DNA of 64,000 bases from an uncultured Sphingomonadaceae bacterium (GTDB taxonomy: Bacteria > Pseudomonadota > Alphaproteobacteria > Sphingomonadales > Sphingomonadaceae): NCBI GenBank assembly GCA_913060895.1, contig CAJXSN010000003.1:1-64000 (forward strand), read 5' to 3'. Shown in pieces: positions 6,203 to 64,000 of this stretch (within the stretch, counting starts at the first letter, position 1; the number at the start of each line of letters is the position of its first letter). The position numbers and the translations under genes were made by a program. The notes under the pieces are model-generated. The model did not search any database, had not been told where the DNA came from, and was given only the letters and a program-made list of their open reading frames with translations.

Positions 6203-6886
6203 CTAGTCCGCAGGCATCAGGTGAACTTCGCGCACTGCGCTGGTTTCCGGCTGTTCCAGGGCGAACACCACAGCATCGGCAATATCGGCGGGCTGCAGTT
6301 TGGTCGGCTTGGCCTCGTCAAAGAAATCGGTGTTGACCATGCCCGGCGTGATGACAGTGCAGCGGCCACCCCATTCGCGCATTTCCTCGGCAAGATTGCC
6401 GGCGAAGCCCTGCACGAACCATTTCGTCGCGCTGTAGACAGAGCCTTTGAAATGCTCGCGTCCGGCCTTGGAGCCGGTGACGACGAACGTGCCCTTGGTT
6501 TTCTTCAGTTCCGGCAAAGTGGCGTGGGCGGTGTACAGCACGGCGAGGATATTGACGTGGATCATGTCGTGCCATTCTTCCGGGTCCCCCTTTTCCATCC
6601 CGGGGGTTTCCACGCCCTTTCCGGCATTGGCGTACACAGCATCGAGGCTGCCGAATGTGTCGACCGTTTTGGTTACCGCTTTGTTCAGTGCATCGCGATC
6701 CGTGACGTCGCATTCCACAGCGAGCGCTTGATCGCCGATTTCATCTGCCAGTTCTTCCAGCCGGTCTTTTCTGCGGGCCAGAAGCACGACATTCCAGCCC
6801 TTGCTGGCTGCCGCACGGGCAGTGGCTTCGCCGATGCCGGATGAGGCACCGGTAATCATAAGTGTGCGCGATGGTTTGTCCGACAT
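6203..6886 (-). CDS. Short-chain dehydrogenase/reductase (SDR)
   Basis: This is a classical NAD(P)-dependent oxidoreductase of 227 residues. The nucleotide-binding motif TGASSGIG is at residues 12-19, the NAG motif near residue 87, the catalytic serine in VVTGSKAG (Ser139) and the YSATK motif at 151-155. The frame is open further upstream to 7021, but only the start at 6886 has a plausible ribosome site (GGAG just before it) and begins with the motif-bearing domain. The C-terminal part resembles the YdfG/NADP-dependent serine or 3-hydroxy acid dehydrogenase branch; the substrate cannot be told from sequence. It converges on the CinA-like gene with a 14-base gap and diverges from the beta-lactamase-like gene. 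Confidence 0.9.
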   Translation of the reverse strand: MSDKPSRTLMITGASSGIGEATARAAASKGWNVVLLARRKDRLEELADEIGDQALAVECDVTDRDALNKAVTKTVDTFGSLDAVYANAGKGVETPGMEKGDPEEWHDMIHVNILAVLYTAHATLPELKKTKGTFVVTGSKAGREHFKGSVYSATKWFVQGFAGNLAEEMREWGGRCTVITPGMVNTDFFDEAKPTKLQPADIADAVVFALEQPETSAVREVHLMPAD

Positions 6887-7011
6887 TTGGGAAACTCCAT
6901 TAATTCGGGTTGTGTAAGGGATATAGCTCGGCAATGCGGGAAGCCGTTCGCAGGTTCCGCGATTGGCGGCGTAAATACCTCGCGCATATGAAAAAGGGGC
7001 TTGGGAAGGGC

Positions 7012-8187
7012 ATGGCAACACGGGGCAGAATTTTAGCGGCGATCGCTGCTTTTGCTGCGCTGGCCGGGCTTGCGACGTGCCATATGTCGGGTGTGGAGGA
7101 GCAGTCCGGCGCCGCTATTGCGCCTTCGATTGAAGAGCGGGTGGAGGAAGCAGCCGAAGAGCTGACCGAAACGATAACGCAGCCGCGATCGCCGCAGGAA
7201 AGCTGGCTGGACGACCGGTTCTACGCCATCGGCAGCACGTTCGACGGGTTTCTGGGCATTGCGATGGTGGATGTCGATCGCGGCGCGGTGGTTCATTTCA
7301 ATGGCCATGAAACCTTCCCGCAGCAAAGCGTGAGCAAGCTGTGGGTCGCGCTGACTGCCTTCGATCAGGCGGACAAGGGCACGCTGGATCTGACAGAGAG
7401 CGGCACGGTGCGGATGGCGGACCTGACCGTGTTCCATCAGCCGCTGCGCAAGCGGGTGATTGCGCAGGGCAGCTTCACCACAACCTATGCGGACTACATC
7501 CGCCGTGCTCTGACGGAGAGCGACAACACAGCCAATGACATGGTGTTGAAACGCATCGGAGGGCCGGATGCCGTGCGCGCCATGTTGGCGGAGAAGGAAC
7601 TGGCGGATATCCGTTTTGGTCCCGGAGAGCGGGCCATGCAGGCGGCCATTGCGGGGCTGGAGTGGGACCAGAGTTACTCTATCGGCAAGACGTTTTTCGA
7701 AGTGCGCAAGACCGTTCCGCATGATCTGCGCCGGACGATATTCGACAACTATGTCGGCGATCCCGTCGACGGCGCGCGGCCTGTCGGAGCGGCGCGGGCG
7801 CTGGCACGATTGGCGGAGGGAGAATTGCTATCGGAAGGCAGCAACGCGCGGCTGCTGACCCTGCTGGGCGAGGTGAAGAGCGGGCCGAACCGGCTGAAGG
7901 GCGGACTGCCCGCAGGATGGAGCATTGGCCACAAGACCGGCACTGGGCAGGTGCTGGATATCGTCCCGCCGGGCGCGATCGGAGAACAGGCGGGCTATAA
8001 CGACATCGGTATTCTGACAGCGCCCGATGGCAGCCGGTATGCTGTCGCGGTGATGATCGGGCGCACTGCGCGGCCCGTGCCGGAGCGGATGGAGCTGATG
8101 CACGAAGTGGTCGCAGCGATTGCAGAATATCACACGCTTGTCAGCGGCGCGGCCGCGACTGAGAGCGGTGCCTCGGCCGAGCTTTAA
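7012..8187 (+). CDS. Class A beta-lactamase-like serine hydrolase
   Basis: The protein carries all three penicillin-recognising motifs. With the ATG at 7012 these are SVSK at residues 106-109 (nucleophile Ser106), SDN at 170-172 and KTG at 308-310. I chose this start because GGGAAGGG lies just upstream and it leaves a signal peptide ending in LATC, a possible lipobox; ATG 6988 is an alternative. The Glu of the class A ExxLN omega-loop aligns with an E in ERAMQ near residue 206, so that motif is divergent. About 30 extra residues separate it from KTG. It is either a divergent beta-lactamase or a related acyl hydrolase acting in the envelope. Its stop overlaps the convergent prmA stop. Confidence 0.85.
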   Translation: MATRGRILAAIAAFAALAGLATCHMSGVEEQSGAAIAPSIEERVEEAAEELTETITQPRSPQESWLDDRFYAIGSTFDGFLGIAMVDVDRGAVVHFNGHETFPQQSVSKLWVALTAFDQADKGTLDLTESGTVRMADLTVFHQPLRKRVIAQGSFTTTYADYIRRALTESDNTANDMVLKRIGGPDAVRAMLAEKELADIRFGPGERAMQAAIAGLEWDQSYSIGKTFFEVRKTVPHDLRRTIFDNYVGDPVDGARPVGAARALARLAEGELLSEGSNARLLTLLGEVKSGPNRLKGGLPAGWSIGHKTGTGQVLDIVPPGAIGEQAGYNDIGILTAPDGSRYAVAVMIGRTARPVPERMELMHEVVAAIAEYHTLVSGAAATESGASAEL

Positions 8188-9089
8188 AAGCTGCGCCTGC
8201 GACGCAGCCACAGGATCGACCAGTCGCCATTGACGATGCGTCCGGCCAGTCGGAAACCCGCCTTGCGATAGGCGGCGCGCACCGCAGCTTCCTGCGTTTC
8301 GAGCAATCCGGCCAGAACAAGATGGCCGCCCGCAGTTACGCTGTTCGCAAAATCCGGCGCAAGGTCGATCAGCGGCTGAGCGAGGATATTGGCGATCAGA
8401 AGATCGAACGGCCCGCGCAACTGTAGCAGGGGGTCGTCCATTCCGTCTGCCACCACCATCAGCAATTCGCCCGTGCGCCCGCCCAATGGGACGGTGTTGG
8501 TAAGCGCATTGTCCAGCACCACGCCTTCGCATATCGGATCGATGTCCGATGCTGTGACGAGGGCGCCGGGCCACAATGCCATCGCGCCAAACGCCAGCAG
8601 GCCCGTGCCGGTGCCAATGTCGGCAATGTTGCGCGCATTCACGCCGCTGACACGAAGGCCAGACAGCATGGCCAGGCAGCCCGCAGTTGTTTCGTGCTGG
8701 CCGGTCCCGAATGCCATGCTGGCGGGGATTACCAGATCGAGCCATTCGTCTTCCGGAGGGGCATGATCGGGGGTGCGGACATGGAACGGGCCGGCACGGA
8801 TCGGATCAACGCCTTGCTGGCTCAATGTCAGCCAATCCTCGTCCGGCAGTTTTTCCGGCACCATCTGCGGCGCGCCACCGTCGAACAGGGCAGCGATCGT
8901 GGCACGGTCGGCCTTGGTAGGTCGGCGATGAAGCCATGCTTCGAACACCCAGTCTTCGGGACGGTCCTCGGCAATCTCATGGCCTGAAACGACGATGCTG
9001 TAGTCCCAGTCGACCGCATTATCCTGAGCGTCGAGCGCTTGAGAGACGACGCCTTTCGGCGCATGAATGGTAAGTTTCCACGATGGCAT
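8184..9089 (-). CDS. prmA: Ribosomal protein L11 methyltransferase PrmA
   Basis: PrmA trimethylates ribosomal protein L11 using S-adenosylmethionine in the cytoplasm. The 301-residue protein has the PrmA hallmarks: FGTGQHETT before the methyltransferase core, the SAM motif ADIGTGTGLLAFGA, an acidic SDIDP loop and the catalytic-region motif LLIANILAQPL. The open frame runs upstream to 9209, but MPSWKLTIHAP at 9089 is the natural N-terminus, since the upstream part is arginine/cysteine-rich and low in sense. An SDR gene lies 47 bases upstream on the same strand and may share the transcript. The last bases overlap the stop of the convergent beta-lactamase-like gene. Confidence 0.94.
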   Translation of the reverse strand: MPSWKLTIHAPKGVVSQALDAQDNAVDWDYSIVVSGHEIAEDRPEDWVFEAWLHRRPTKADRATIAALFDGGAPQMVPEKLPDEDWLTLSQQGVDPIRAGPFHVRTPDHAPPEDEWLDLVIPASMAFGTGQHETTAGCLAMLSGLRVSGVNARNIADIGTGTGLLAFGAMALWPGALVTASDIDPICEGVVLDNALTNTVPLGGRTGELLMVVADGMDDPLLQLRGPFDLLIANILAQPLIDLAPDFANSVTAGGHLVLAGLLETQEAAVRAAYRKAGFRLAGRIVNGDWSILWLRRRRSF

Positions 9090-9136
9090 GGGCGGCCATC
9101 TACCAGCGAGCGGCCCGGCGGGGAAGCGGCCGCACG

Positions 9137-9856
9137 CTAGCGGACGTAACTTGCACCGTTGGCATCCAGCGTAGCGCCTGTGAGACTGGGCGGGGCATCC
9201 AGCGCGCAAAAGGCGATCAGAGTGGCAATCTCCTCTGGCTGAGCCACAGCGCCCAGCGGAATATCCTGCAACAAGCCGGGACCGCCCCTGCTGGCCAGAT
9301 AATCGCCTGCCATCGATGTGTCGGTAAAGCCGGGCGCGATGGCGTAGGACAGAATCCCATCGCCGGCATAGGCGCGCGCAATGGTCTTATGCAGCGCCAG
9401 CATCCCGCCCTTTGCCGCTGCGTAATGCCAGTGAGTGGGCGAATCACCCCTTTGGCCTGCCCGGCTGGCGACATGGACAAGCCGCCCCCGCTGCGCGCCT
9501 TCTGCTTTATGCTTCAGCCAATGCTGCACGGCAAACCGGCTGAGCTGGGCGGACGCTGTCAGGTTGATACGCAGGGTATCCTCCCACGAATCGAGCCAGA
9601 TGATGTCTGCACTGTTTACCGGATTGGCATCGAACAGCCCGGCATTGTTCACCAGTATGTCAATTCTACCGCCCGCTTCTTCCAGCGCCTGTTCCCACAG
9701 CATTTGCGGGGCGGTGGGCTCGGTAAAATCCGCTGCAATCCGGCCATCGCCGCCAGCAGTCGAATGGCCGATAACGGTACAGCCGCGCGCCTCCAGCGCA
9801 GTATGCGCAGCAGCGCCGATGCCCCGGCTCGATCCTGTCAGAAGAATTGTCGTCAT
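9137..9856 (-). CDS. FabG-like short-chain dehydrogenase
   Basis: A 239-residue classical SDR. The cofactor motif is TGSSRGIG at residues 7-14, NNAG at 70-73, the catalytic serine at 131 and Tyr145/Lys149 in YAAAK. The C-terminal APGF and LTGATLDANG segments are typical of the FabG/3-oxoacyl reductase branch. The chain is complete and near the usual 240-250 residues. It lies upstream of prmA on the same strand, which gives no clue to the substrate. A role as a general ketoacyl or quinone reductase is possible; which one cannot be decided here. Confidence 0.9.
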   Translation of the reverse strand: MTTILLTGSSRGIGAAAHTALEARGCTVIGHSTAGGDGRIAADFTEPTAPQMLWEQALEEAGGRIDILVNNAGLFDANPVNSADIIWLDSWEDTLRINLTASAQLSRFAVQHWLKHKAEGAQRGRLVHVASRAGQRGDSPTHWHYAAAKGGMLALHKTIARAYAGDGILSYAIAPGFTDTSMAGDYLASRGGPGLLQDIPLGAVAQPEEIATLIAFCALDAPPSLTGATLDANGASYVR

Positions 9857-58368: not shown

Positions 58369-59163
58369 TCAAACGCTCCTCAGCGCGTCCAGTATCTGCA
58401 TGTCGTACCACTTACGGGCATGATCTTCGACAAAGGCATGGCTCGCACCATCACAGCTCATTACCCTGTCATCATCGGAGGGCCATGAGGCAGTGAATAT
58501 CTGTGCCGTCCTGTCTGCGCCGGCGAGCAGGAACCGCACAGGGCCATCATAACCCGCGATGCCGCCGGCCATACGTCCGGCCAGACCGCTGGGGGCAGAG
58601 CCCTTGCCGACAGAGCCGAGAATGCCGCCTGCCAGCTTGCGCAGATTGACTCCACCACTGACCAGTCGCCACAGTTCGCGCGGGTTTTTCAGTTTGGCGA
58701 GATAGCGCGCGCGAATGGCTTCCGGGGGCAGGGGGCTTTCATTGCCGGCACCGTCCGCCGCTTGTTCGATCGTCCACGGATTCGACAGTATCAGCCCGTC
58801 GCAGCCTGCCCCGCCAGCCAGCATCAGCGCGCTGGCGGCATCGCAATTTCCCAGACCGACGACCTTTTCAATCGCAGGGGCAATGGCGCGGAACGCATCG
58901 AGGGCTGCGCGAATATCTTTTGTGCTGGCCTCGAAACCGCGGTTCTCGCCCTCGCTATCGCCGATACCGCGGCGGTCGAAGCGGAAGACCGGGAAGCCCG
59001 CCTTGGCGATCCGCGCAGCCATTTGTGCTTGTCCGGAAAACGCGCCGGAGCGCAATTCATTGCCGCCACTGACTAGCAACAGCCCGGTTTTTGCAGGTGC
59101 CGTGTCCAGTGTACCGGCCAGCATGGATTGACCGCATCCGAAGGCAAGGTGAAGGCGGCTCAT
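58369..59163 (-). CDS. Alpha/beta hydrolase 1, exosortase A system-associated
   Basis: A 264-residue alpha/beta hydrolase matching the family found with exosortase A (hydrolase 1 type). The N-terminal strand and oxyanion part read LLLVSGGNELRSGAF, then FRFDRRGIGDSEG. The nucleophile elbow is GNCDAA (105-110), so the nucleophile would be Cys107 rather than serine, as is usual in this family. The catalytic His is in SHAFVED. Its actual substrate is unknown; a thioesterase or transferase role on carrier-bound intermediates fits the neighbourhood. The start overlaps the stop of hydrolase 2 (ATGA). Confidence 0.92.
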   Translation of the reverse strand: MSRLHLAFGCGQSMLAGTLDTAPAKTGLLLVSGGNELRSGAFSGQAQMAARIAKAGFPVFRFDRRGIGDSEGENRGFEASTKDIRAALDAFRAIAPAIEKVVGLGNCDAASALMLAGGAGCDGLILSNPWTIEQAADGAGNESPLPPEAIRARYLAKLKNPRELWRLVSGGVNLRKLAGGILGSVGKGSAPSGLAGRMAGGIAGYDGPVRFLLAGADRTAQIFTASWPSDDDRVMSCDGASHAFVEDHARKWYDMQILDALRSV

Positions 59164-59852
59164 TGGGCGCGCTCCGCATCGCCCAGACCCATCGCCAGGG
59201 TAGCAGCCAGTGCGTCGGCCTGGTCGGTATCGAAATCCGGTTCTGCCCTAAGCCATAGCGCTCCGCCGCCCAGTTCCGATTGTTCAATCAGAGAAAGCTG
59301 GTCTGGAGCAGGTTTATTCGCCTCTTCCAGTTGCACGAACATCTGCGCGCCAATGGGCCACCCTGCCAGAGTGATGCCATCTGCGTGAGCCATATCGGTC
59401 AGCGTTTCGATGTTTTCCTCATGGCCCGCTTCACGCGAGGCAATTGTGCGGGCGCGCAGCATGGATCTCAGCAATTGCTTGCCGGCAACCGGACCGTAGA
59501 GCCAGCCGGGCAAACCTGCTGGCACCAGCAGCCCTCCACCGCGCACGGCCAGAACGTGGCTTATACGAAAATGCTCCACAGCAGCCTGCACTGCGGTGCG
59601 CCAGCTATCGAGCGTATGGTTCGTTAGGCAGGCTGTGCTCTCGTTACAGCCGGGCAGATCGGGCAGGAAACAGTCCACTCCGGATGCGTCCAGCCGCTGC
59701 ATTACCTCGACCAATTGATGCCGCAGCTTGTTATGTTCGTCGAACAAAGGTGGGATGAACAGCAGGCGCGACTGGCGACCGGCATCAAAAATGCGTGCGT
59801 TTTCCTCTGCAACTCCCCCGCCGGGTAGAGGACAGGGCCAGAGCGCAAACAT
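59160..59852 (-). CDS. Alpha/beta hydrolase 2, exosortase A system-associated
   Basis: A 230-residue protein of the hydrolase 2 type that accompanies exosortase A. Recognisable parts are RLLFIPPLFDEHNKLRHQLVEVMQ and CFLPDLPGCNEST, with a later VLAVRGGGLLVPAGL where the nucleophile elbow should be. No serine or cysteine stands at the elbow (VRGGG), so catalysis by the usual triad is unlikely, which agrees with the family being atypical. It overlaps hydrolase 1 by four bases and follows the acyl carrier protein by nine, so it belongs to one transcript with both. Confidence 0.9.
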   Translation of the reverse strand: MFALWPCPLPGGGVAEENARIFDAGRQSRLLFIPPLFDEHNKLRHQLVEVMQRLDASGVDCFLPDLPGCNESTACLTNHTLDSWRTAVQAAVEHFRISHVLAVRGGGLLVPAGLPGWLYGPVAGKQLLRSMLRARTIASREAGHEENIETLTDMAHADGITLAGWPIGAQMFVQLEEANKPAPDQLSLIEQSELGGGALWLRAEPDFDTDQADALAATLAMGLGDAERAQ

Positions 59853-59861
59853 GATCCTGAG

Positions 59862-60182
59862 TCAGCTTTCCGCGACTTTGGCTTCTGCGAAGGCGAGGAG
59901 GCCACCATAAGTTTCCAGCATTTCGCCATCGACATCATCATCTTCTATGATGATGTCCAGCCGGTCTTCCATTTCGGTCAGCAGCCCTGCGACAGCCATA
60001 GAATCGAGTTCGGGCAGATGTCCGAACAGGCCGGTATCGGAGTCGAATATTTCGACTTCGTCGGGGTCAAGACCCAGCACATCGCACAGGATTGAACGCA
60101 AATCGCGGTCTATAGACACACGGCTGCGCAGTGCATTGTTCTCTGGCCCAGTGTTCGTTGGCGGAGCGGACTGTTCGGTCAT
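59862..60182 (-). CDS. Acyl carrier protein of the exosortase A cluster
   Basis: A 106-residue acyl carrier protein. The phosphopantetheine attachment site is Ser61 in PELDSMAVAGLL. The helices before and after it are typical of the fold, and the C-terminus is acidic (DRLDIIIEDDDVDGE). An N-terminal tail of about 25 residues is low in complexity. ATG 60182 is chosen over a start six residues earlier. It lies between the FemAB-like gene and the hydrolases. It would carry the acyl or aminoacyl intermediate that the divergent ligase activates; that role is inferred from context. Confidence 0.92.
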   Translation of the reverse strand: MTEQSAPPTNTGPENNALRSRVSIDRDLRSILCDVLGLDPDEVEIFDSDTGLFGHLPELDSMAVAGLLTEMEDRLDIIIEDDDVDGEMLETYGGLLAFAEAKVAES

Positions 60183-60220
60183 GATGGAAATTCTACCCAC
60201 GGTCGAAAGTGGGCCGCTCC

Positions 60221-61222
60221 CTAGCTTTCCGCGCCTTTCGACGCAAGGCGCGCGCCTAGGGCGGAGATGGTTCGTTTTGCCAGCGGAGGCCAGGCAGCGG
60301 GCTGTAAAGGATCAAGGCAGTCAATCCGGAATCGCGGGCGCACCTCTTCCATCCAGTCAGCCTTGTAGCGATCATTGCCTGTTCCGAAGTCGACAAACTC
60401 TACGCCATCGATGTCGATAACATGTTCGAAGAGGGCTGCACTTAGGGTCGTGCCGGCAGACAGGGTCTTGCGCGCTTCCAGATGGGCGAGCTTGTGAATA
60501 TAAGCGACCCCGTTTTCAACGGTCCAGAACTGGGCCGCCACCGGCTCGCCGTCGTGGCGGGCCACAGCGAGGCGGATACGGCCCGCTGCGCCTTCTTCGG
60601 CGGCAAAGCGCCTGAGGAGGTCCGGCGTGCCTTCTTCCGGTTTCCAGCTCTCACTATAGATCGCCTGATAGGCTTCCCATGCGGCCGCGTCGAAATGCGT
60701 TAGCAGTTGAACCTCGACCTTCTTGGCCTTGCGTTTCAGCGTTGTACGCATCCGGCCCGGACGGCTGGCCCAATAGTCGGCAAAGCTGCGCCCAGCTACT
60801 CTCAGTACATGATTGTGGTCGCACTGCTCTCGGCGAACTTGCCAGCCTGCGCCTCTGAAGGCCTTTACCAGCCGGCTTGCCGATCCGTCTTCGTCAGGGA
60901 CAGGCCACAAGGTTACTCTGTGCGAGCGGCTGCGCAAATCGCGCGCGATACTCGCTAGCAGGCGGTCCCCTTCTGCGCCCTCGGGTGCAAGTTGCCGCCA
61001 TGTGAAGCTGTACCAGTTGCGTAAGGGCTCTATCCTGCCCTGTGTCTCGGTCAGCGCCATGGCGGCCAGCGTATCCCCATCGCTCGCCATCGCAACCAGT
61101 GGCCGCGTATCGCTGGCGAGCAATTCGAACCATTCAGGCCTGTCGAACGGAGACGATGCAAAAGCACGTGTTCCTTGCAAGACGTTAACCCTGTCGTGAT
61201 AGCTGGCAGCAATCGCATTCAC
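60221..61222 (-). CDS. FemAB-like acyltransferase, PEP-CTERM system-associated
   Basis: The 333-residue protein matches the FemAB-related, GNAT-fold family associated with PEP-CTERM/exosortase A systems. Recognisable segments are WYSFTWRQLAP, FRGAGWQVRREQCDHNHVL and RMRTTLKRKAKKVEVQ (the RTTLKRK stretch is typical of the family). The late core FWTVENGVAYIHKLAHLEARKTLSAGTTLSAALFEHVID and FGTGNDRYKADWMEE follow. FemAB-type enzymes transfer aminoacyl groups, which fits a carrier-protein pathway. The start at 61222 lies only 20 bases from the start of the divergent ligase gene. The acyl acceptor is unknown. Confidence 0.93.
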   Translation of the reverse strand: MNAIAASYHDRVNVLQGTRAFASSPFDRPEWFELLASDTRPLVAMASDGDTLAAMALTETQGRIEPLRNWYSFTWRQLAPEGAEGDRLLASIARDLRSRSHRVTLWPVPDEDGSASRLVKAFRGAGWQVRREQCDHNHVLRVAGRSFADYWASRPGRMRTTLKRKAKKVEVQLLTHFDAAAWEAYQAIYSESWKPEEGTPDLLRRFAAEEGAAGRIRLAVARHDGEPVAAQFWTVENGVAYIHKLAHLEARKTLSAGTTLSAALFEHVIDIDGVEFVDFGTGNDRYKADWMEEVRPRFRIDCLDPLQPAAWPPLAKRTISALGARLASKGAES

Positions 61223-61242
61223 GAGGACACTTCTCCATTCCC

Positions 61243-62769
61243 ATGCAGCTATCGCCTGATACTCTCGCCAAACCGCTCGACCATCTGGCGATGCGCGGTG
61301 CCGACAATGACCCTGCGCTCGTGCTGCGTTCAGGCACGCTTACCTATCAGGGCTTAAGAAGCCGTATCGCGCTGCTGGCGGCATGGCTGGCCTCCGAGGT
61401 GCCCGATAGGGGCGCTCGGGTGGCGAGCTGGGCGGCGAAGGGCGAACTGACTTGCCTGCTACCCCTCGCATGTGCGCGAGCAGGGCTGGTCCATGTACCG
61501 GTCAATCCACTGCTGAAGCGGGCTCAGGTGGCGCATATTCTGGGCGATTGCGGTTCTGCGATGCTGCTGGGAACGGCTGCCCGGCTGAAAACGCTGGATG
61601 ATAGCGATCTGCCTGCCGGATGCCGCGTATTCGACGAGAACGCAGTATGGGCTGCTGCCGAAGCGAACTGCGGATCTATGGGTCCTTCATCGGCTGACCC
61701 GGATGATCTAGCCGCGATTCTTTACACCAGCGGCTCCACAGGGCGCCCCAAGGGTGTGATGCTCAGCCACACCAATATGTGGCTCGGCGCGGAAAGCGTC
61801 GCGGCTTATCTCGATATGGCGGCAGATGACGTGGTGCTGGGCGTTCTTCCGCTCAGTTTCGATTACGGCCAGAACCAATTGCTGAATGCCTGGTATGCGG
61901 GGGCCTGCGTCGTCCCGCTCGATTATCTGTTTGCACGTGATGTGGTGAAGGCCTGCGCGAAACATGGGGTAACTACGCTGGCGGCGGTTCCGCCGCTGTG
62001 GGTTCAGCTTATCGAAGCCGACTGGACTGCTGAATCTATAGCCCCAATGCGCCGGATGACCAATTCGGGCGGCGCGCTGACTAGGCAGGTTGTGAGCGAG
62101 CTTCGCAGCCTGTTCCCTGAAGCGCGGCTGTTTCCAATGTACGGGTTGACCGAGGCGTTTCGCTCGACATTTCTCGACCCCGGTCTGGTCGATAAACACC
62201 CAACCTCTATGGGAACTGCGATTCCGCATGCCGAGATTTTGGTGATCGCCGATAACGGCGCTGTCGCTGCTTCTGGCGAAGAGGGCGAGCTTGTCCATTG
62301 CGGACCATTGGTGGCGCAGGGTTACTGGCAGGATGCCATCCGGACTGCCGAGCGTTTCAAATCCGCGCCCTCCGTTTCACGGTATGGCGGCACAGCCGTC
62401 TGGTCCGGCGATCGGGTGATACGCGACGAGAAGGGTCTGCTCTATTTTGTCGGACGGCGCGATGCGATGATCAAAAGTGCTGGCAACCGGATCAGCCCAC
62501 AGGAAGTGGAAGAGGCAGCCTTGGCAACGGGGCTGGTAGCCGAAGCTGTCGCTTTGGGCGTGAAGGACGAGCGGCTGGGGCAGGCGGTCCATCTGGTCGT
62601 CCGGGCGGAGCCGGATGCGATGAACGCCGAAACTGCGCTGCCAGGCGCACTGGCCAGAGACCTTCCCAATTTCATGCAGCCGCAGACTATTCACTGGCGT
62701 GAGACAATGCCGCTAAATCCCAATGGAAAACTGGACAGAACTGCGCTTGCGAAGGAGGTTGGGGCATGA
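61243..62769 (+). CDS. AMP-forming acyl ligase, exosortase A system-associated
   Basis: A 508-residue AMP-dependent ligase of the family found with exosortase A. It has the P-loop LYTSGSTGRPKGV at residues 160-172, the YGLTEAFRST motif, GEEGELVHCGPLVAQGYW, the hinge GRRDAMIKSAGNRISPQEVEE and the catalytic Lys in NPNGKLDRTAL near residue 499. It would activate a carboxylic acid as an adenylate and load it on CoA or, more likely here, on the nearby carrier protein. The stop overlaps the start of the PLP decarboxylase (ATGA). ATG 61243 lacks a clear ribosome site; 61288 is an alternative. Confidence 0.93.
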   Translation: MQLSPDTLAKPLDHLAMRGADNDPALVLRSGTLTYQGLRSRIALLAAWLASEVPDRGARVASWAAKGELTCLLPLACARAGLVHVPVNPLLKRAQVAHILGDCGSAMLLGTAARLKTLDDSDLPAGCRVFDENAVWAAAEANCGSMGPSSADPDDLAAILYTSGSTGRPKGVMLSHTNMWLGAESVAAYLDMAADDVVLGVLPLSFDYGQNQLLNAWYAGACVVPLDYLFARDVVKACAKHGVTTLAAVPPLWVQLIEADWTAESIAPMRRMTNSGGALTRQVVSELRSLFPEARLFPMYGLTEAFRSTFLDPGLVDKHPTSMGTAIPHAEILVIADNGAVAASGEEGELVHCGPLVAQGYWQDAIRTAERFKSAPSVSRYGGTAVWSGDRVIRDEKGLLYFVGRRDAMIKSAGNRISPQEVEEAALATGLVAEAVALGVKDERLGQAVHLVVRAEPDAMNAETALPGALARDLPNFMQPQTIHWRETMPLNPNGKLDRTALAKEVGA

Positions 62770-64000
62770 GTGTGAAACCCAAACCTGTCGGCCCTATCCC
62801 TTCGGGCTACGAAACTGTTGATGGCGAGTTGGCCATTGCGGGCAAGCCTGTAAGCTCGCTGGTAGAGGAAGCTGGTGGATCGCCGCTATTTGTCTATTCG
62901 CGCGACAGGCTGACTGCGCGCATGGAAATGCTGCGTTCTGCCATGCCGAAACGGCTGGCCATTAACTATGCCATCAAGGCCAACCCTTTCGAACCTCTGC
63001 TGCAACATATGGCGCCGCTGGTCGATGGTTTCGACATCGCTTCCGGCGGAGAGCTGGAAATACTGCGCGGGGCCGGAATTGATCTGGCACGCGTCAGTTT
63101 TGCCGGGCCGGGCAAGCGTGACGATGAATTGAACGCAGCCATTGCGGCTGGGGTTACGCTGAACCTGGAATCCGAAAACGAAGCACGGCGTGCTCTGACA
63201 ATCGCGGACAAGCTGGGCATCACCCCCCATCTGGCGATCCGCGTCAATCCCGACTTCGATATGAAGGGGTCGGGTATGAAGATGGGCGGCGGGGCCAAGC
63301 AGTTCGGTGTGGATGCGGAGCGCGTTCCCGCTCTGGGCCGCGAACTGCTGGCTGCGGGTGCGAAGTGGCTCGGCCTGCATATCTACACCGGATCCCAGGC
63401 GCTTTCTGCCGAGGCGATTATCGAAACACAGGCCAATGTGCTGGCTCTGGCAGACCGCATCGCAAGCGACATCGGGCAGCCTTTACCAAAGCTCAATATG
63501 GGCGGCGGGTTCGGGATTCCCTATTTTCATGGGGATGAAGAACTGGATGTTTCTGCCATCGGTTCTGCCTTGTCTGCACGCTTCGATGCTTTGCCCGATA
63601 CGCTTAAAGACGCGCATTTATGTATCGAATTGGGTAGGTATCTGGTGGGGCTTGCGGGGGTGTATCTGACCCGGATTGTTGACCGGAAAGACAGCCACGG
63701 CGAAACCTTTCTGATTACCGATGGCGGCTTGCATCATCAACTGGCCGCATCGGGCAATTTCGGAACCGTGGTGCGGCGCAACTATCCTGTTGCTATCGCA
63801 AGCAGATTCGGCGCGCCAGCCGATGATTTGGCGAGCGTGGTCGGATGCCTGTGCACTCCGCTGGACCGGCTCGCCGACCGGGCGCACCTACCACGCGCCG
63901 AAGTGGGCGATCTGGTCGCGGTTTTCTGCGCCGGGGCATACGGGGCTACGGCATCGCCAGCAGCCTTTCTGGGGCAGGGCCCGGCAAGGCAAATGCTCGC
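62766..64000 (+). CDS. PLP-dependent decarboxylase, exosortase A system-associated (partial, runs off window)
   Basis: The first 411 codons of a fold-type III PLP-dependent decarboxylase of the diaminopimelate/ornithine decarboxylase class, of the subfamily that accompanies exosortase A. The PLP lysine is Lys71 in INYAIKANP. Further motifs are FDIASGGELEIL, LGLHIYTGSQ, the glycine loop NMGGGFGIPYF, the CIELGRYLV arginine segment and VGCLCTPLDRLAD. VFCAGAYGATASPAAF near the end supplies the active-site tyrosine. The open frame has no stop up to the window end; about 5-10 residues are probably missing. It starts within the ligase stop (ATGA). The substrate is an unknown amino acid. Confidence 0.94.
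   Translation, partial: MSVKPKPVGPIPSGYETVDGELAIAGKPVSSLVEEAGGSPLFVYSRDRLTARMEMLRSAMPKRLAINYAIKANPFEPLLQHMAPLVDGFDIASGGELEILRGAGIDLARVSFAGPGKRDDELNAAIAAGVTLNLESENEARRALTIADKLGITPHLAIRVNPDFDMKGSGMKMGGGAKQFGVDAERVPALGRELLAAGAKWLGLHIYTGSQALSAEAIIETQANVLALADRIASDIGQPLPKLNMGGGFGIPYFHGDEELDVSAIGSALSARFDALPDTLKDAHLCIELGRYLVGLAGVYLTRIVDRKDSHGETFLITDGGLHHQLAASGNFGTVVRRNYPVAIASRFGAPADDLASVVGCLCTPLDRLADRAHLPRAEVGDLVAVFCAGAYGATASPAAFLGQGPARQML

Follow-up and report, generated by a model that had tools for sequence, protein, structure and literature searches.

A candidate carrier-protein route from aspartate to beta-alanine among the exosortase A-associated genes of sphingomonads

Two protein families, TIGR03098 and TIGR03099, are named solely by their association with exosortase A (XrtA), and a locus of an uncultured Sphingomonadaceae bacterium raises the question of what such genes do. 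The window analysed here is a stretch of 64,000 nucleotides, bases 1-64000 of contig 3 (C3; CAJXSN010000003.1, assembly GCA_913060895.1), from a genome of 2.7 Mb that is 99.99% complete. At its end lie six open reading frames (ORFs), which the initial annotation had read as one six-gene exosortase pathway. All six are present in the orientations it gave, but comparison with related genomes resolves them into two modules. A trio of acyl carrier protein (ACP), AMP-forming ligase and pyridoxal phosphate (PLP) decarboxylase would form a carrier-protein line from aspartate to beta-alanine that replaces the aspartate decarboxylase PanD, with a FemAB-like transferase probably also feeding the XrtA polymer; we put the probability of this reading at roughly 0.6. 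The six genes, four of them on the minus strand, are as follows.

58369..59163, minus strand: hydrolase 1 (TIGR03100), an alpha/beta-hydrolase with a Cys nucleophile; 211 bits, cut-off 168
59160..59852, minus strand: hydrolase 2-like protein, with an alpha/beta-hydrolase fold; TIGR03101 46 bits, cut-off 203
59862..60200, minus strand: dedicated acyl carrier protein; PP-binding domain 29.7 bits, cut-off 20.8
60221..61222, minus strand: FemAB-like tandem-GNAT transferase; Pfam Acetyltransf_6, 75 bits
61243..62769, plus strand: AMP-forming ligase (TIGR03098), putatively an L-aspartate:ACP ligase; 636 bits, cut-off 592
62766..64000, plus strand: PLP decarboxylase (TIGR03099), BtrK-like; 572 bits, cut-off 478; the ORF is interrupted by the window end and stops at C3:64004

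The decarboxylase and panD exclude each other within the family. We drew 119 family genomes, for which the genome-wide counts score the decarboxylase alone, the full trio being checked at fetched loci only. The decarboxylase scores over cut-off in 100 of these genomes, and panD (TIGR00223) is found in five, all of them among the 19 without it (0/100 versus 5/19; Fisher p 6e-5, kinship ignored). Among 397 family genomes, panD occurs in 12, from 7 genera. In these 12 the decarboxylase never reaches its cut-off, the best matches to its model staying at or below 205 bits, the level of LysA, the diaminopimelate decarboxylase. The gene for PanC, the next enzyme towards pantothenate, is present in 113 of the 119 genomes. 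It is missing from G256, G283, G346 and G347 (96-100% complete), which all lack the decarboxylase, and from two decarboxylase carriers, G257 and G320 (85% and 66% complete). Five of the 12 genomes with panD have panC no more than 3 kb away from it, and in the window's own genome panC is present and panD was not found. Where PanC is present, the decarboxylase and panD thus have the complementary distribution in the family that is expected of functional equivalents. A vitamin-precursor role, which the initial annotation had not considered, is what this distribution points to.

Two genera hold both states: g239 (decarboxylase in G288; panD in G364 and G563) and g265 (decarboxylase in G315; panD in G568). 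The second genus provides the strongest single piece of evidence, an exchange of trio for panD in place. In G568 (locus L274), panD (181 bits, cut-off 106) lies between truA (6330-7064), which it directly follows, and trxB. The congener G315 (L153) has the trio in this place, in the order decarboxylase, ligase, ACP from truA (8570-9304) towards trxB. The two flanks are 75% and 83% identical, and the segment between them measures 3.3 kb with the trio and 0.9 kb with panD. The panD of G364 (L273) occupies a different site. The trio lies between trxB and truA in L146, L151 and L156 as well as in L153; the two names are confirmed for L153 and L274, and in the other three loci we take the genes to be trxB and truA by similarity.

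Beyond the family, the panD pattern runs in the same direction but weakly. The decarboxylase is over cut-off in seven of 241 genomes of the class (four from the family itself) and in 32 of 397 genomes of the phylum (21 from the family). We find panD in 0/14 outside-family carriers (10 families), in 4/15 genomes with lower-scoring decarboxylase relatives and in 13/51 genomes without the decarboxylase (two of the 13 just below the curated cut-off), a comparison that took in no beta- or gammaproteobacterial genome without any decarboxylase relative.

The trio offers a specific answer to a gap in the literature. According to the excerpted text of PMC7142369, aspartate decarboxylase (ADC) occurs in 17% of 204 alphaproteobacteria, many sphingomonads have PanC and no ADC, and Rhizobium etli uses a pyrimidine-derived route to beta-alanine. 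The part of Table A2 in that excerpt lists Erythrobacter sp. SD-21 and Novosphingobium capsulatum with PS = 1, ADC = 0, GAD = 0 and PYD3 = 0. Both carry the trio (L177 and L229), SD-21 the trio alone.

What chemistry would the trio perform? The best match of the decarboxylase among all PDB sequences is BtrK, the L-glutamyl-[BtrI ACP] decarboxylase (220 bits), and the best diaminopimelate decarboxylase in PDB reaches 151 bits. A CT[PTS]xD motif, CTPED in BtrK, is found in 163/163 distinct relatives from fetched loci and in 18/18 more distant ones; 20/20 LysA-level proteins have CE[ST]xD and 0/20 the CTPxD type. The LysA motif RPx[LIMFY]Y, present in 17/20 LysA-level proteins, is found in 0/163 and 0/18 of the decarboxylase relatives. 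A maximum-likelihood tree of 54 rows separates the TIGR03099-like proteins and BtrK, itself a long branch, from LysA with support of 100/100. Both motifs and tree place the decarboxylase with BtrK, whose substrate is glutamate bound to an ACP, and apart from LysA.

These results make it very improbable that the decarboxylase duplicates diaminopimelate decarboxylase in the lysine pathway and that the ligase is a common acyl-CoA ligase. Both proteins do belong to broad superfamilies, and the LysA model TIGR01048 scores 237 bits on the window decarboxylase; this is below the LysA cut-off of 298, carriers such as G010, G125 and G207 have a separate LysA-level match, and we reject a LysA paralogue because LysA motifs are absent from the 163 and the 18 relatives. 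More distant TIGR03099-like decarboxylases (L275-L277; 338-350 bits on our own model) adjoin several adenylation-type ORFs in an arrangement resembling peptide-synthetase clusters.

Over its whole length, the ligase finds amino-acid adenylation domains as its top PDB matches, headed by LgrA, with VinN as the second distinct protein, and the pocket region finds VinN first; on these matches we reject a plain fatty-acid ligase. According to the excerpt of PMC7756342, VinN holds aspartate through Asp230, Ser299 and Arg331 (the chain numbering in our PDB match is that of the paper plus 16, an offset deduced from residue identities). At the equivalent positions 158/158 ligase relatives have Asp, 141 have Ser and 17 Thr, and 158/158 have Arg. 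Aspartate is thus the probable substrate of the ligase. The available text of PMC11284099 reports that thioester formation is required before VinO decarboxylation and that FlvN recognises Asp. Because of the VinN-type pocket, and of this order and Asp recognition as given in that partial source, the product of the trio is likely to be beta-alanyl-ACP. The ACP itself keeps the Asp-Ser attachment site in 152/152 aligned relatives.

We propose that the ligase activates L-aspartate as the adenylate of its side-chain carboxyl and transfers the aspartyl group to the dedicated ACP, and that the BtrK-like PLP decarboxylase then strips the alpha-carboxyl from the tethered substrate to give beta-alanyl-ACP. 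In sphingomonads the trio would thereby stand in for PanD, and beta-alanine released from the carrier would pass through PanC to pantothenate and coenzyme A. In genomes that have the XrtA locus, the FemAB-like protein would probably also transfer the beta-alanyl group onto an amine acceptor belonging to the exopolysaccharide system. Homology (BtrK, the VinN pocket, the FemX/MprF fold and a FemAB-ACP fusion) gives good support to the sequence of events that the initial annotation had sketched, in which the ligase loads, the decarboxylase acts and a FemAB-type enzyme transfers. Its decarboxylase made an amine; the product is probably a beta-aminoacyl thioester and not a free amine.

Similar carrier-protein lines are known from antibiotic biosynthesis. 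VinN-VinL-VinO (vicenistatin) and BolO-BolC-BolN (bolagladin) likewise combine a stand-alone ligase, a stand-alone ACP and a PLP decarboxylase with an Asp/Ser/Arg pocket, and in the excerpts of PMC11284099 and PMC7756342 decarboxylation follows thioester formation. Those lines feed antibiotic-type products, whereas the sphingomonad trio sits at core sites of the chromosome, does not co-occur with panD in the family and in many cases is linked to an exosortase locus. In butirosin synthesis, BtrK with the BtrI ACP is the nearest solved decarboxylase and shares the CTPxD motif and tree clade. The butirosin ligase is not AMP-forming but an ATP-grasp enzyme. The net result proposed for the trio, aspartate to beta-alanine for pantothenate, is that of PanD and of the PanP-type enzymes, DVU0867 among them, but family searches of the window proteins show no homology to either. 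PanD is pyruvoyl-dependent and PanP/DVU0867 are PF00282 PLP enzymes (excerpt of PMC10102598); both work in one step with no carrier.

How the trio relates to the exosortase system is apparent from genomes in which the two come apart. XrtA is over the TIGR03109 cut-off in 76 of the 119 genomes (those below it are called XrtA-minus here), and the FemAB-like gene is found in 70 (E 1e-10). Decarboxylase and XrtA occur together in 73 genomes, the decarboxylase only in 27, XrtA only in 3 and neither in 16; on this overlap we reject XrtA dependence of the whole six-gene set. Weaker exosortase matches (127-159 bits) exist in 17 of the 27, and the other 10 have none at E 1e-30. The FemAB-like gene is present in 67/76 XrtA-positive versus 3/43 XrtA-minus genomes.

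We fetched decarboxylase neighbourhoods for 20 of the 27 XrtA-minus carriers. At 13 loci (L141-143, 145, 146, 149, 151-153 and 155-158) the trio stands alone and the rest of the XrtA locus is missing, nothing else of it scoring above 30 bits in the stretch, with the one exception that L152 has another ligase-like ORF. The residues of pocket and active sites are conserved at all 13. L148 resembles these loci apart from a 38-bit ATPase match, L144 and L160 retain most polysaccharide genes, and L147, 150, 154 and 159 retain remnants. Two of the 27 XrtA-minus genomes, G270 and G351, keep most of the polysaccharide locus. In L149, the match to C3:63999 at the decarboxylase end is followed about 30 bp later by a match to C3:77231-77954 (ZapE): the 13 kb from the export to the amidotransferase genes are missing, and both flanks match the surroundings of the window. 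All six genes occur in 56 of the 67 named loci that are 15 kb or longer; 10 have only the trio, and one has the trio with the FemAB-like gene. In 20-kb stretches from 11 outside-family carriers, ACP and ligase are each found in 10, hydrolase 1 in 9, hydrolase 2 in 8 and the FemAB-like gene (>100 bits) in 1.

The six genes are thus two modules, the trio on the one hand and the FemAB-like and two hydrolase-fold proteins, which are largely XrtA-linked, on the other. The single pathway of the initial annotation gives way to this division, as the trio persists where XrtA, FemAB-like and hydrolase genes are gone. The chemistry of that annotation was right in good part, and the trio is most likely a separable line that replaces PanD. 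Separately, L090 (G330) has XrtA, amidotransferase, FemAB-like protein, ACP and hydrolases with a 24-bit ligase remnant and no decarboxylase, through a deletion or an assembly fault.

The same distribution bears on the alternative that all six genes form one exosortase A/exopolysaccharide decoration pathway, in which the FemAB-like protein puts an ACP-made aminoacyl group on the polymer and coenzyme A plays no part. The absence of panD would then be a coincidence of lineage, and the cells would obtain beta-alanine by breaking down pyrimidines, through GAD or by uptake. We consider this unlikely given that XrtA is below cut-off in 27 of 100 decarboxylase genomes (10 of them with no exosortase match at E 1e-30), that the trio is alone in 13 of the 20 loci read, and that panD and the decarboxylase exclude each other inside two genera, once at the same site. 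It nonetheless draws support from the 70 regions of the family with the FemAB-like gene at their centre, 60 of which contain all six genes, from the 67/76 versus 3/43 split, from FemAB-ACP fusions and from the general rarity of panD in alphaproteobacteria (the 17% in the excerpt of PMC7142369).

The second module departs in part from its labels. Hydrolase 1, ligase, decarboxylase and ACP keep the names of the initial annotation at scores over cut-off. The FemAB-like protein matches no NCBIfam model at E 1e-3 and hence misses the TIGR03019 cut-off; the canonical XrtA FemAB, which does belong to TIGR03019, is encoded separately, some 10 kb further downstream (L002:13278-14342). Against PDB sequences the FemAB-like protein has 0 matches at E 1. 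Its structural model (pLDDT 93) finds FemX, MprF and aminoacyl-tRNA-dependent peptide synthases (streptothrisamine-binding) as best PDB folds, at TM 0.55-0.66 and 12-16% identity. Those enzymes use aminoacyl-tRNA, whereas here the FemAB-like protein and ACP form a single ORF in two species, Alteraurantiacibacter aquimixticola (L036/L175) and Blastomonas marina (L119/L224), and the fusion therefore suggests an ACP-bound donor. The fused frames run at L036:6472-7797 (minus) and L119:7378-8763 (plus); in the window the two genes share a frame, with a stop and a short intervening stretch between them.

Two hydrolases had been predicted, of which hydrolase 1 stands: in an alignment of 124, it keeps the Cys of G-x-C-D-A-A in 121/121 ungapped rows, with Asp in 119/119 and His in 118/119. 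Hydrolase 2 is doubtful. It does not reach the curated TIGR03101 cut-off, its nucleophile (elbow) position is Arg in 126/127 rows (the remaining row is a gap), and the alignment has no invariant His. In its model (pLDDT 96), which matches alpha/beta-hydrolase folds, R104 sits at the strand-to-helix turn. Having Arg in place of the nucleophile, the protein is probably not a hydrolase. Since both proteins are absent from lone-trio loci and hydrolase 2 has no nucleophile, we reject the hydrolases as a necessary release step.

Several observations weigh against the proposed role of the trio, the case for which is comparative. There is no dedicated release enzyme, hydrolase 1 being absent from lone-trio loci, and three of the 13 (L143, L145 and L157) have ligase and decarboxylase but no recognisable ACP nearby. 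All 158 ligase relatives have Phe where VinN has Lys330. Eight genomes have panC with neither panD nor the decarboxylase (G252, G259, G261, G263, G301, G330, G343 and G355), so yet another beta-alanine route must exist. Outside the family, panD is also missing from 5/5 non-carrier controls of f31 and f140, families to which carriers belong as well. The excerpted Table A2 of PMC7142369 gives GAD = 1 for Erythrobacter litoralis HTCC2594 and sp. NAP1 and PYD3 = 1 for Novosphingobium sp. PP1Y and Sphingobium chlorophenolicum, and other beta-alanine sources are therefore possible in some sphingomonads. Finally, BtrK, the nearest solved relative, works on glutamyl-ACP, unlike the aspartyl-ACP proposed for the trio. 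The trio could accordingly make a different omega-aminoacyl-ACP, such as gamma-aminobutyryl-ACP from glutamate, for another cell component, with an indirect exclusion of panD. An Asp/Arg pocket could accommodate glutamate too; since the pocket residues agree with VinN, an aspartate-type enzyme, and gamma-aminobutyrate does not explain a same-site replacement of panD, we regard this as quite improbable. Among the eight genomes, G261 is 67% complete.

If the trio is a beta-alanine line, a function can be assigned to TIGR03098 and TIGR03099 that explains why both persist where there is no exosortase, and a chemical identity, beta-alanyl, is suggested for a step of XrtA exopolysaccharide clusters. 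It is about an even bet that the 'exosortase A system-associated' genes amount to an unrecognised beta-alanine route in which antibiotic-type carrier chemistry provides for coenzyme A across a large group of bacteria and vitamin synthesis and surface-polymer decoration share beta-alanyl-ACP. Such a pathway would be autocatalytic, because the phosphopantetheine arm of the ACP itself contains the product. We found no paper joining exosortase, beta-alanine and decarboxylase in the open PMC literature (subscription papers may hold one), and none there for the TIGR numbers or the phrase 'exosortase A system-associated'; nor did further papers, assessed from their titles and opening abstract lines, treat this link.

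The surroundings of the window bear out the exosortase link that the initial annotation had predicted. Downstream of the decarboxylase follow an export protein, a chain-length determinant, a tyrosine kinase (185 bits, below its own cut-off of 231), a 571-aa protein, an ATPase and a deacetylase, and farther on the canonical FemAB, a glycosyltransferase, XrtA, an asparagine-synthase-like amidotransferase and then ZapE. The xrtA gene (C3:73485-75110) is over the TIGR03109 cut-off, encodes an EpsI-type C-terminal domain and starts 9.5 kb downstream of the window; the genome has one PEP-CTERM match (search at E 0.1). Relatives returned by name are chiefly Erythrobacteraceae and Sphingomonadaceae. 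The arrangement recurs more often than chance would give, both in the 60 of 70 regions with all six genes and in orientation: ACP and ligase lie on opposite strands in 159/159 loci with both within 4 kb, a count that uses the score limits of the script and includes some genomes twice, as G locus and as named locus. The divergent FemAB-like and ligase genes have only 20 bp (61223-61242) between their called starts, which leaves no room for two promoters; the genes may in fact begin further in, or promoters may extend into coding sequence. The 571-aa protein of the XrtA locus (L002:9523-11238; C3:67522-69237), which has no NCBIfam match at E 1e-10, is conserved in the family and, judged by eye, has the appearance of an outer-membrane beta-barrel.

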